A model generated the notes under the pieces. The model did no database searches, was not told where the DNA came from, and worked only from the letters and a program-made list of their open reading frames with translations. From assembly GCA_034509925.1 (NCBI GenBank), contig CM067536.1, forward strand, positions 1,755,001-1,819,000: a stretch of DNA of 64,000 nucleotides. The letters are read 5' to 3'. Positions 18,401-23,751 of this stretch are shown here, piece by piece (position 1 is the stretch's first letter; each line of letters opens with the position of its first letter). The position numbers and the translations under genes were made by a program. The DNA is from Hirudinaria manillensis. Its lineage: Eukaryota; Annelida; Clitellata; Hirudinida; Hirudinidae.

Positions 18401-21400
18401 TTTCAGTTTTCTTTTAATACTTGTTTAAATACGAATTTCTTTTCGTGCAAATATGAATAATTATCTAAATACAAATAACGTGTGTCACGTCTCATTGCCA
18501 CGTTTAGCACAATTCATTCGAACAAATTCAAATCTTACAATTTAGAACACTAGGCTACTAAATTGTTACATTAATGAATGTTAAATAAGTCTTAATAACT
18601 ACTGAATGTTAGTCCTACTTGCTGTTACCTGGCATGAACTATAATGAATATTATATTGTTGTTATTATTTTAGTAAATTTAAGCTTTAAAAAGTAGGTCA
18701 AGAGCTTCCTTAAGAACTTGCCTACACATCCCTGGTTAGAATCACTACGGAAGCCATCTTTACAAAAGCATTCAAAACTTCCTACTTTATTCTTGCAGTT
18801 CATATTCTCACCACAGCTATAATTTTCTTGGCTACACTCATCCAAGTCTGAAATTTTAATGTACTATGGTTTAGTTTCATTTGTTTCATTTAAAAAATAA
18901 TTATAAAAATTTAATGCTTAATTTTTATTACTATTTATTATTTCAATACTTGCCATGGCAATTCTGGTAAGGGTCACCATAGAAACCGACTGTACATTGG
19001 CATTCATAACTTCCAATGTTATTAGTACAGTTGCTATTTTCAACACAACTATTATTCCAATGTGTGCATTCATCTGTGTCTGAAAAATTGCGGGGTTCTC
19101 TTTATTTAATCTTAGTCTGATTTTTCAACAATACTAGCTTATGCGTCTCCAATATTTGAATTGCATTTACTTAAAGTTTACAAAATCAATTTTAATTCTT
19201 ATTTCTAATCAACAAAATTGTAAAAATTCTTACTGTCAGAGATGGGATAATTATGGAATTGTTTATGAAGCGGGTCCTATAGACTATAGGATGTTTATGT
19301 TATTGTGACTCGAATCTTAAAACAACTTTGCCTAATAACGGCTAACAATTTTAGCCTTAGCTTAAGAAAAAAATATAAATTAATTGTTATCTCAATACTT
19401 GCCTACACATTCCTTTTTAGGATCACCATGGTAACCAACCATACACAGACATTCATAACTTCCTTCTTTATTCGAGCAGTTCATGTTATTACCACAAGGA
19501 TAATTGCTTGCGATGCATTCGTCCACGTCTGAAATTTGTGTTTTCAGTTAATCGTTTATTATTCAGCTAATTTGATATCTTTTTTTTTGTATTTTTAATT
19601 TTTTGGACAATAATTTTGCTTTAGAGTTTGATTTAAAGTCATTAATTAGGATAAAATCATTTTAATTTTCATGTGAAAGCCCTGACACAAGCAAGAGTTA
19701 AATTATCGTTATCTTTCTAAACATGCCTAAACATCCTCCTTCAACGCCATTTTCAAAACCATGATTGCAAGGACATGAAAAACTTCCGATAGTATTTGTA
19801 CAATTCTCATTTTCACGACAGGTATTATTTCTTTCCAAACATTCGTCCACGTCTAAAAATCATCGTTTTAGAAATTTAGCTAACTTAATGTGTAATAAAA
19901 TGAAATTAGAATTCAAACTCATAATAATACAACTAGTTTATTTGGTTAAAGTCAATGTTTTACTTGTTACTTCAATTTGGAAAAAAAGATGCAAGTGCTT
20001 TTAATCAGAATTTTAGAAGTGATTTCTGGAGTAATTGATTTGAAAAGATAATTAAAACATTAAATCAATTTCAGAAAAACATTATGGGTGGAAAATATAG
20101 GTTATATCGTCGCATATCGTTGCAAGATCTACTTTGAAAAGCAATGTATGGAACAATTGCATACTTGCATACATACAACTGCAACACCGGCAAATAAAGA
20201 TGCGTGCCAAACAAATTATCCTACATATTATATCCTTCATCAACTTCAACATGCATTTAAATTAAGTTTAATTATTTTCCTAATTAATCTTAAACTCGCC
20301 TTCACATTTCTTCTCAGAAACGTCTTTATAACCATCGTGACATATGCATGAATAACTTCCAACATTGTTGGTACAATTCGCATTGTCACCGCAAATGTTA
20401 AGCGTTGCACATTCGTCAACATCTGGAAATTGTTTTTTTTTTAATTTAAATTATTAAATAAATTATTTAAAATTATTGAATGAATTTTTTGTAGAAATGG
20501 AAAATAGGAAGCTATTAGCACTCTTTGATCTTTGCGTAAGAAATGGTATAACTCCAGCTCCAATTAAAAACTGACCAACACATCCCCCATTAGGGTTGTC
20601 TTCAAATCCCTGATGACACGTGCAAGAATAATTTCCAATCTTATTTGCACAATCAGAATTATTTCCACAAATATTGGGTTCTTCTTTACATTCATCGACG
20701 TCTGAAAATTAATGTGTTTGCCAAATTGGTCACATGCGATCAGCTTTTTAAACTAAATGAAATTTTAATACGTACATTTCTCCTATTAAAATTTAAAAAA
20801 CTGGTAAAAATTCATCGGCAAATAGTTTTTTTTATATATATATAAATAGTCTTTTGATCCATAAATGTGCTTATCAAATGATCAAATGCATCTACTTTGA
20901 ATTGCTATACGCCTACAACCCTTGCCCAATCACACAATAACGTTAATTACGTGACTTTCAACAAAGAAAGGCCACAAGTAAATCTTTCAATGTTCTAGGA
21001 ATCTGGGATGTTGGAATAAGAAAACGTTATTTAGAGATTAAATTAACATTTAAAAAAAAATAATATTGTCATCGTCAAACATGCAAATATCATTCAATTA
21101 TTTCTTAATAGAAAACATTTAAGGATGAAAATTGAATTAAAATCTTATTTTATGAATTTGAAAACTGGTAAAATATTTTATAATTATAATTAACCTTTAA
21201 GTCCTTGAAAAGCAATTATGCATTTAGTTTAATTTTATTAAATGTTAACTGAAACTGAAATAATTTAAATTGTGAAAATAGTTTTATTTTTTATTAGTTT
21301 GGTTGTATTTCAAGTTCAAATTGCAAACAATGTTTTGAGTTTTAATTGATTTATTTAAAAAAATAATAAATTCATATTTAACATAAAATAAACTTTTGTA

Positions 21401-23751
21401 TTACTTTTGAAATATTTAATACCATCTTTTCTAAAGGAAAGCCATTACCATTAAAGGTTAGTTTGATTATATTCAGGTGACTTGATTAATATTTTCCTGG
21501 AGAATATTTTTAAAGCGGTACATTTTAATTATTTTAAAAGATGTTTCTAGCAATAAAACCCAGGCCAAAGCAAATAGCAAAGCAAATTCGTGGAGTGAAA
21601 CAGAAAATAAAAATTAAATAAATAAATAAATAAATAAATGAATGAATAAATAAATATTTAATTAAATTTATTTTTCAAAGACTCTGTCGTAAATATTTTC
21701 TTCTGACTTAAAAATGAAACTTCTTTATAATTGCAAACAACATTGATTCTAAAACCCCTACCTTTGCATTGCGAGACCAAATCATGCCTGCTATATCCCT
21801 CCTGGCAAAAGCATCTAAAGTGTTCAGTTCCATTGAAACCAATACTTCTGCATTCCTCGTTTGTCTTGCAATTATTTCTAATTTTGCAGCCTGAGTTTGG
21901 ATGATGAAGTGATGTTAATGTCACTTTTGGAGACAATTTCTTGTAATAAACGTAGTAAATTTTAATTACTTTCGGCAAAAACCTCGATTTCACAGATGGT
22001 TAGATGTTCTTTTCTTGGTAAAACCGCAAACAAATATCTTCCTTCAATTGGTTTATTACAATTCATTTCTATGGTAACATCTTGATCTGTTACGTGGTCA
22101 CGAGTATTGCAATAGGCATCAGAAGAATTGAATATATCCATGTTGTTGATATGTTCAGGAAATTTCTTTAATATGGATATTGTCACGCCAGCTAGTCTTG
22201 ATCCTGAAATGCCATTGAAACAAGTACAATTAAATAAAAAAATATTTCGTAGATAATTATTTTTTATTAATGCATAAATATAAAATAAAATGAAGTAATT
22301 AATTAAATATACCATATTCTCGAGCTCTGTTGGTTATGACGACACCCTTGATTGTGATTTTTTGTCCAAGATCTACGTAGAACCATGTAATGTCCCCCAC
22401 ATTCTTGTCCTTACTTGTTTGACTGCAGTAAGCTATTTTTTTATCTTCAAAAGTGTTCTTGAAATTTCCATCAACTGCTTTTTCGGGAGGATAAGTGGTG
22501 TTTTCTTGACTGGTGTGAGTTGAACTTTGATTGACAGGACGATTGTAAGCGATGTTGACATCGGTTAACAATCTGTCTAATATATAAAACTTCAATAAGA
22601 AACTTTTGAAGCTTAAATTATAATAAATCTATTTTTATTCTACTTTTTTATCATTAATTTTAATTATTAATATATTTATAATTAATTATATTGACTAATA
22701 TTTAATATATTAATTTTTATTATTAATAAACTGCAATCCTTATTTAAAGTTATATACTTTTCCACTGATTAATTTTAATTCTCTGTAAATATAACTTAAA
22801 TTGTGAGGCAATATTTAAGTGATTGTTTGAATAATAATTTAAATAATTATTTATGAGCAAATCAAAACTGTTACTTATATCGCATCCATCTCCGTTGTCA
22901 TGACAATCAAGTAAACATCCGTCACTTCGATGGCAGAGAATAGTTGGACATTCAATGCAAGGTTTGTCGCATTCGTCACCATGGTAACCAATTTCGCAAA
23001 CTGTTTTGGAGAAAAATATAAAATCCTGATTTACCGTTTAAAGTTATATACTTTAATTGAAGTTTAAATTTAAATAATATTAAATTTTTAATATTGAATT
23101 ATAAATGTTCTAACTAAAAAAATGACTTTAACAAAATACAAATGTTTTCTTAGAATCTGATATTAATAATAATTTATTAATAATAATTTTTTATTTTCAA
23201 ATTCTGTGAAGGAAATTCACGAAGAACAATTTATGAAACCTGAAAAAACGCTGTAATCCGATTGTCCATCACAACTTCTTGAATTTGTTCCAAGACATTT
23301 CGTTTGACATTTCGACTCATCGGATGATTTGTTGAAATGTTCTCCACAGTAGCAGTGGTTTCCCTAAATTAATAATATTAAATAATAAATAAACAAATAT
23401 TTAAATTAATAATTGTATTTAAGTGATCCTGTTCTCTTTGTCTACCCTTTCATAAATATACTTTATGCGCAATAATATATGAATTTATAGAAATAAATTA
23501 ATTTAAATCGGTTAAAAACTTGCCTTCAGGGCTGCAAAAGTAAACTCCTTTTTATTAGTACAGAGCTCCAAACACGAACTGAGATTGTTACCACGATACC
23601 CAATATCTTGCTTTCCATCAAAATTTTTAAAACATCCGATATAATTTCGAATGAGATGAATTTCATTGTATTTCCTGGAAGCTGACATTCCAATCATAAC
23701 AAGAAGAAGCAAATTGATGCTCAAAAGAATCATTTTATCCAATGACTTCAC
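12440..23751 (-). CDS. Receptor-type tyrosine phosphatase RPTP-A (WSC/EGF/lectin-like ectodomain)
   Basis: Minus-strand exons: 23751-23524, 23363-23240, 23000-22875, 22576-22313, 22203-21970, 21890-21762, 20701-20576, 20422-20300, 19852-19727, 19528-19403, 19079-18954, 18847-18722, 17663-17564, 17493-17459, 17327-17200, 16959-16875, 16562-16492, 16201-16171, 16048-15951, 15603-15472, 15384-15242, 15049-14914, 14681-14550, 14403-14367, 14101-14055, 13898-13789, 13561-13406, 12969-12818, 12581-12440; about 1197 residues. Order: signal peptide; WSC domain (YIGCF, then HCYCG); EGF-like exon; F5/8 or fucolectin-like domain over two exons (NIAYNRPVNQSST, AVDGNF); one EGF; six calcium-binding EGFs (DVDEC type); TM helix (PAVAVVVPLLVLLLLASGAF); PTP domain 1 with WPDHGVP and [10 protein letters not shown], so probably catalytic; PTP domain 2 with VLSPEKSALASYF where the catalytic Cys and Arg should be, so a pseudophosphatase. 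It should dephosphorylate phosphotyrosine at the inner membrane face; the ligand is unknown but the ectodomain suggests glycans. Six introns use GC donors. Phase fails by one base between the exons 14403-14367 and 14101-14055. Confidence 0.85.
12680..12743 (+). repeat. Interstitial telomere-like (TTAGGG)n
   Basis: About ten degenerate TTAGGG units, with variants TTAGAG, TTAGGT and CTAGGG, inside the last intron of RPTP-A. Single TTAGGG-like units also occur near 16418 and 42807. Confidence 0.85.
16586..16791. repeat. (TAATA)n pentanucleotide array, about 200 bp
   Basis: Around 40 nearly perfect copies of a 5-bp unit in an intron of RPTP-A, between the exons 16959-16875 and 16562-16492. A 118-codon open frame on the minus strand (16576-16932) is partly this repeat and partly the real PTP exon. 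Confidence 0.95.
21611..21657. repeat. (AAAT)n tetranucleotide tract
   Basis: About a dozen AAAT/GAAT units in the large intron of RPTP-A between exons 21890-21762 and 20701-20576. That intron shows no further EGF exon that I can detect. Confidence 0.8.

Follow-up and report, generated by a model that had tools for sequence, protein, structure and literature searches.

Why would a single leech gene begin six of its introns with GC instead of GT, five of them after consecutive exons? The gene, RPTP-A, lies in a 64,000-nucleotide stretch of Hirudinaria manillensis DNA (contig CM067536.1; C11:1755001-1819000 of the 148 Mb, 23-contig assembly), referred to here as the window. GC-AG introns are normally scattered. 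They make up 0.983% of annotated animal introns (PMC7072748). Each GC intron of RPTP-A is of a known type, and it is the run, partly common to a sister gene, that is unusual. Unlike the usual GC-AG introns, those of RPTP-A follow five consecutive EGF exons and exon 1 of one gene.

GC donors of RPTP-A

RPTP-A was traced on the minus strand from 23733 to 14367, where tracing ended. The 24 exons are open in a single frame of 989 codons. Pfam matches in the 989-residue protein are EGF_CA at six stretches, an F5/8C domain and, at 6.9e-76, a PTP domain. RPTP-A has the parts of a receptor-type protein tyrosine phosphatase, namely extracellular modules, a membrane segment (recognized by eye only) and a PTP domain with the HCX5R motif. 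GC is found at 6/24 donors, those of exon 1 and EGF2 to EGF6. The remaining 18 donors are GT, and AG is the acceptor in each of the 23 introns between the exons. The six exons EGF1 to EGF6 are all phase 1-1, and EGF1, in the same array as the run, has the donor GTCAGT. The first-pass annotation had placed the six GC exon ends at 23524, 20300, 19727, 19403, 18954 and 18722 within a chain of phase-1 exons, and re-tracing returned the same chain and exactly these positions. As in U2-type GC-AG introns, the GC donors pair with AG acceptors in a manner consistent with the reading frame. Because GC is present at two separate loci, RPTP-A and the sister gene, sequencing error is unlikely. The run is genuine, and the annotation read it correctly except in holding that the protein forces every GC.

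To replace GC, a GT donor would have to preserve the protein. Every frame-keeping, stop-free GT/AG pair was listed within set limits: donors could lie up to 45 bases within the exon or, on the intron side, as far as 30 bases short of the next exon, and acceptors anywhere between -90 and +45. There are 45 such pairs: 1 between exons 1 and 2, 4 at EGF2-3, 3 at EGF3-4, 14 at EGF4-5, 10 at EGF5-6 and 13 between EGF6 and the predicted transmembrane exon (EGF6-TM). Each alternative at EGF2-3, EGF3-4 and EGF5-6 costs at least one EGF cysteine, and the sole alternative at exon 1-2 removes GNHCYCGE. At EGF4-5, 1/14 retains all cysteines but uses a poor acceptor and lengthens the spacing of the modules by eight residues, and at EGF6-TM 1/13 retains both the EGF and the membrane segment. 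None of the 45 alternative donors matches more than two of the six flanking consensus positions (-2, -1 and +3 to +6), versus five or six at the GC donors. In the predicted protein, then, GC is forced at EGF2-3, EGF3-4 and EGF5-6. It is strongly favoured at EGF4-5 and EGF6-TM, where "forced" was too strong because one cysteine-keeping GT option exists at each.

Four exons (EGF2, EGF3, EGF4 and EGF6) also contain a GT that falls in the Cys6 codon and precedes the GC donor by six bases. Its use would keep the frame and lose Cys6, and it is a possible weak alternative donor.

GC donors among EGF exons of the genome

EGF exons of the genome served as the control, in place of a genome-wide count of GC-AG introns. 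Besides the window, the sample drew on the 30 best Pfam EGF_CA matches (a locus of 3.1 kb around each), 20 loci of the nearest EGF relatives and a few further stretches; it is cluster-biased and contains near-copies. Among 153 EGFs in a first pass, 137 had GT first, 9 had GC first and 7 lacked a candidate donor. Those 7 were removed, together with 4 repeats whose proteins were identical and one GC lying within the body of an exon (L022), leaving 141. One GC-first row (L013) was scored as GT since GT comes one codon on. The last EGF of the sister gene is outside the 141, having been missed by the strict pattern and found by a looser one.

The 141 distinct donors are 134 GT and 7 GC. Five of the GC donors belong to RPTP-A, one to EGF2 of the sister gene and one to an unrelated C4 exon in L005 (GCTAGT, versus GTTAGT in its apparent paralogue in L013). 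Outside RPTP-A and its sister there are 132 GT and 1 GC, and this rate of 1/133 is close to the figure of 0.983% from the animal survey (PMC7072748). The claim that RPTP-A far exceeds a 1% background is borne out, with GC at 5/6 of its EGF donors versus 1/133 elsewhere (Fisher P about 9e-8, tandem copies in one gene not being independent draws). Since the copies are not independent, the surprise lies in the origin and persistence of the run and not in the number five. All 5 of the EGF-like exons found in RPTP-B are followed by GT, as had been noted. Among the matches listed from the open-licence literature, no report was noticed of GC-AG introns occurring as a run in an array of EGF or other exons.

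Calcium-binding EGF exons cluster at C4:11.3-13.5 Mb, C2:13.23-13.28 Mb, C12:2.66-2.69 Mb and C11:1.7-2.6 Mb (1086 first-look candidates, 150 scored). C11 also carries many PTP-domain exons.

Donor strength and U1

The seven GC donors of the sample match the flanking consensus at 5, 5, 5, 6, 6, 5 and 5 of six positions, versus 3.49 on average among the 134 GT donors (P 1.6e-5, one-sided; copies not independent). Five of six positions match in 22/134 GT donors. Stronger flanks than those of GT donors characterize U2-type GC-AG introns, and a strong match at the other donor positions is a known pattern of GC donor signals (PMC2490688). The RPTP-A introns resemble the U2-type class (PMC7072748) in having GC at +1/+2, an AG acceptor and strong remaining donor positions.

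Thousands of GA-AG introns occur in Eurytemora and Oikopleura, where a U1 variant has been proposed (PMC7072748). The RPTP-A donors are like these in having a noncanonical +2 base. They differ in the U1 genes and in that GC is nearly confined to one gene pair in the EGF sample. At least 42 matches to U1 genes were scored; 5' ends were read for 25 (20 + 5), leaving 17 unread. None of these 25 of at least 42 genes has the G opposite +2 that would pair with a donor C. A U1 variant as the cause of the GC donors is unsupported in the 25 of 42 copies read.

The U1 genes, with clusters on C5 and C8, begin with AAACTTACCTG in 18/25, ATACTTACCTG in one, ATACTTACTTG in two (L049, L055) and AAACTTACCTT in one (L047). 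Three of the 25 carry ATACTAACCTG in place of ACTTACCTG (C9:6896667, L043; C5:3602879, L050; C8:613812, L052), which should pair with a U at position +3 of the donor. Upstream, each of the three retains an ACACC or ACCACC box; an ATTTTTG-like site is present in L043 and L052, not in L050. Among the EGF-exon GT donors, 51/134 have T at +3 (GTTAAT 12, GTTAGT 7), which is high relative to the animal norm.

The sister gene and a third paralogue

The sister gene is on the plus strand about 70 kb away, starting at C11:1704158. Across exons 1-6 its protein is 86% identical to RPTP-A (362 codons), with a synonymous divergence (dS) of 0.12 and a nonsynonymous divergence (dN) of 0.08, and those six exons are open. 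Its donor is GCAAGT both at exon 1 and at the last EGF, which precedes the hydrophobic exon; EGF1 has GT and EGF2 has GCGAGT. This last EGF is only 34-44% identical to RPTP-A EGF1-6.

The sister gene looks chimeric (C11:1704158-1710760; L034, L035). The 5' half is a near-copy of RPTP-A, and the last EGF and hydrophobic exon are far more diverged, as if the two halves had different histories. Upstream of its EGF1 lies a stranded fragment (C11:1706286-1706688), the 3' part of an EGF4-like exon together with its GC donor. In a third paralogue (C11:1717838) the counterpart of exon 1 is followed by GTAAGT. This suggests that GT changed to GC there in the line of RPTP-A and its sister.

Origin of the run

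The first-pass annotation proposed that exon duplication had copied a GC donor. It is partly supported by GC at EGF2 of the sister gene and by the EGF4 and EGF5 introns, which agree at 13 of the 16 bases following the donor hexamer (P 3e-5, uncorrected for the 36 pairs and four lengths). The likeness of these intron starts may be a trace of copying or conversion. Because exon 1, which is not an EGF exon, has GC and the third paralogue has GT there, at least two GC origins are likely, and exon 1 appears to fall outside the proposal.

Several results weigh against a single duplicated exon as the source of the EGF run. The other EGF introns lack clear mutual similarity in local alignments (200 shuffles, 15 EGF pairs); the lowest P values were 0.04 on the 5' side (EGF2/EGF6) and 0.055 on the 3' side (EGF1/EGF6), and nothing remains after allowing for 15 pairs. 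An EGF protein tree of 140 rows and 43 columns left 89/137 inner branches open, with 4 changes of GC/GT state. The tree was set aside for placing the GC copies, 43 columns being too few. Dissimilar introns and an open tree mean that a single origin of the EGF run is not established. EGF1 has a GT donor within the same array. Finally, synonymous divergence among EGF2-6 ranges from 0.63 to saturated and the region is about 72% A+T, a poor fit to passive retention of C.

Supposing a single origin for the run and neutrality of C against T at +2, the chance that C was kept in all five would be about 0.004-0.008. The estimate is rough, as it uses UPGMA (the unweighted pair group method with arithmetic mean) or single linkage and noisy dS from 41 codons capped at 2.5, assumes a base composition and ignores conversion. 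With copies this old and a chance this low, passive retention looks unlikely. Either conversion renewed the C, or selection holds it, or it arose several times.

Explanations for the GC donors

On balance we consider it probable that RPTP-A is a working gene with real U2-type GC-AG introns, that the EGF run came from one duplicated GC-donor exon, and that exon 1 is separate. Ordinary U1 would splice the GC introns, since the remaining donor positions match the consensus unusually well. Most likely, the run grew by tandem duplication of one ancestral EGF exon that had a GC donor, and the copies may later have converted one another. The exon 1 donor would have turned to GC separately. We infer that the GC introns are spliced and that all EGF exons are usually included, the +2 mismatch easing the skipping of any EGF exon with the frame kept.

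The let-2 gene of C. elegans has duplicated exons. Regulation through its single GC-AG intron was reportedly shown by mutation (Farrer et al. 2002, cited in PMC2490688, PMC7242645). This precedent bears on the foremost alternative, that selection keeps the RPTP-A donors deliberately weak so that the receptor stalk can gain or lose EGF modules through frame-neutral exon skipping. We regard it as a minority possibility. All six EGF exons are phase 1-1, neutral retention at all five is improbable (about 0.004-0.008 if there was one old origin), and the sister gene also has GC at the EGF that precedes its membrane exon, though those two EGFs are 39% identical. Like let-2, RPTP-A combines a GC donor with a gene for an extracellular protein. 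Unlike let-2, with one intron and regulation shown by mutation, RPTP-A has six predicted GC introns and an EGF array. The neutral estimate comes from a UPGMA tree and dS values that are based on 41 codons and capped at 2.5, and it ignores conversion; the strong flanks also compensate for the weak +2 base. Moreover, alternative splicing need not accompany a conserved GC donor. GNAI1 intron 6 has a conserved GC donor reported as uninvolved in it (PMC5896119), and resembles the RPTP-A donors in keeping GC over long times but is a single intron. By analogy with let-2 and GNAI1, a held GC donor can be regulatory or nonregulatory. Regulation of EGF exon inclusion by the GC donors, as first suggested, is possible. 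We are a little more doubtful still that serial weak donors held by selection yield stalks with differing EGF counts from one gene, as a trait older than the split from the sister.

Alternatively, the GC donors may have arisen by separate T to C changes, nearly neutral in donors with strong flanks, RPTP-A being simply rich in such donors. This scheme of T to C change is discussed in PMC2490688. Exon 1 seems independent, the unrelated L005 has GCTAGT where its apparent paralogue L013 has GTTAGT, and the introns of most copies are without clear similarity. Yet five consecutive donors are GC while 22/134 GT donors with 5/6 matches remain GT, and the EGF4 and EGF5 intron starts are alike. We think separate changes unlikely.

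That the GC sites are unused, the gene being decayed or otherwise spliced, is very improbable: the GC junctions are predictions and one cysteine-keeping GT alternative exists at each of EGF4-5 and EGF6-TM, but these alternatives match at most 2/6 flanking positions, 24 exons are open across 989 codons that encode six EGF_CA stretches and match PTP over its full length, and sister exons 1-6 are open with dS 0.12 and dN 0.08.

RPTP-A provides a natural series of GC donors with GT controls in EGF1, the sister gene and 132 other sampled EGF exons. Reading the junctions of one transcript would test whether GC donors persist through drift in a strong context, copying or regulation. Gene finders that accept only GT would lose or break the gene.

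Features of the window

Features traced in RPTP-A and RPTP-B, with positions in the window
Feature	Position	Strand	Donor	Remark
RPTP-A exon 1	23524..23733	-	AAG/GCAAGT (23523-23518)	signal-peptide-like start, first part of Cys-rich module
RPTP-A exon 2	23240..23363	-	GTTTCA	remainder of exon-1 Cys-rich module
RPTP-A exon 3	22875..23000	-	GTAACA	Cys-rich
RPTP-A exons 4-5	21970..22576	-	GTATAT, GTAATT	F5/8 type C domain (PF00754)
RPTP-A exon 6 (EGF0)	21762..21890	-	GTAGGG	EGF-like, weak PF00008
RPTP-A EGF1	20576..20701	-	TTG/GTCAGT	phase 1-1
RPTP-A EGF2	20300..20422	-	AAG/GCGAGT	
RPTP-A EGF3	19727..19852	-	TAG/GCATGT	
RPTP-A EGF4	19403..19528	-	TAG/GCAAGT	
RPTP-A EGF5	18954..19079	-	ATG/GCAAGT	
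RPTP-A EGF6	18722..18847	-	TAG/GCAAGT	EGF_CA 4.4e-10
RPTP-A hydrophobic exon	17564..17663	-	GTTTGG	predicted transmembrane, by eye
RPTP-A exons 14-24	14367..17493	-	GT (11/11)	juxtamembrane part and PTP domain (PF00102, 6.9e-76, residues 720-943)
RPTP-B EGF-like exons (5 found)	32985..35714	+	GT (each)	

The N-terminal Cys-rich module of exons 1-2 is presumably WSC-like, which Pfam did not confirm: a WSC domain was absent among 15 Pfam families at E 0.01 in the 989-residue protein. For exon 3 Pfam gave nothing at the same threshold. A long TTATA-type microsatellite lies in an intron of the phosphatase part, at about 16590-16790 in the window.

Elsewhere in the assembly, C23 (15.6 kb) carries mitochondrial COX1, in which TGA encodes Trp and AGR occupies usual Ser positions. 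A COX1 match on a nuclear contig (C9:3026446-3027786) has the same score as that at C23:31-1371, and is either a recent nuclear copy or an assembly artefact.

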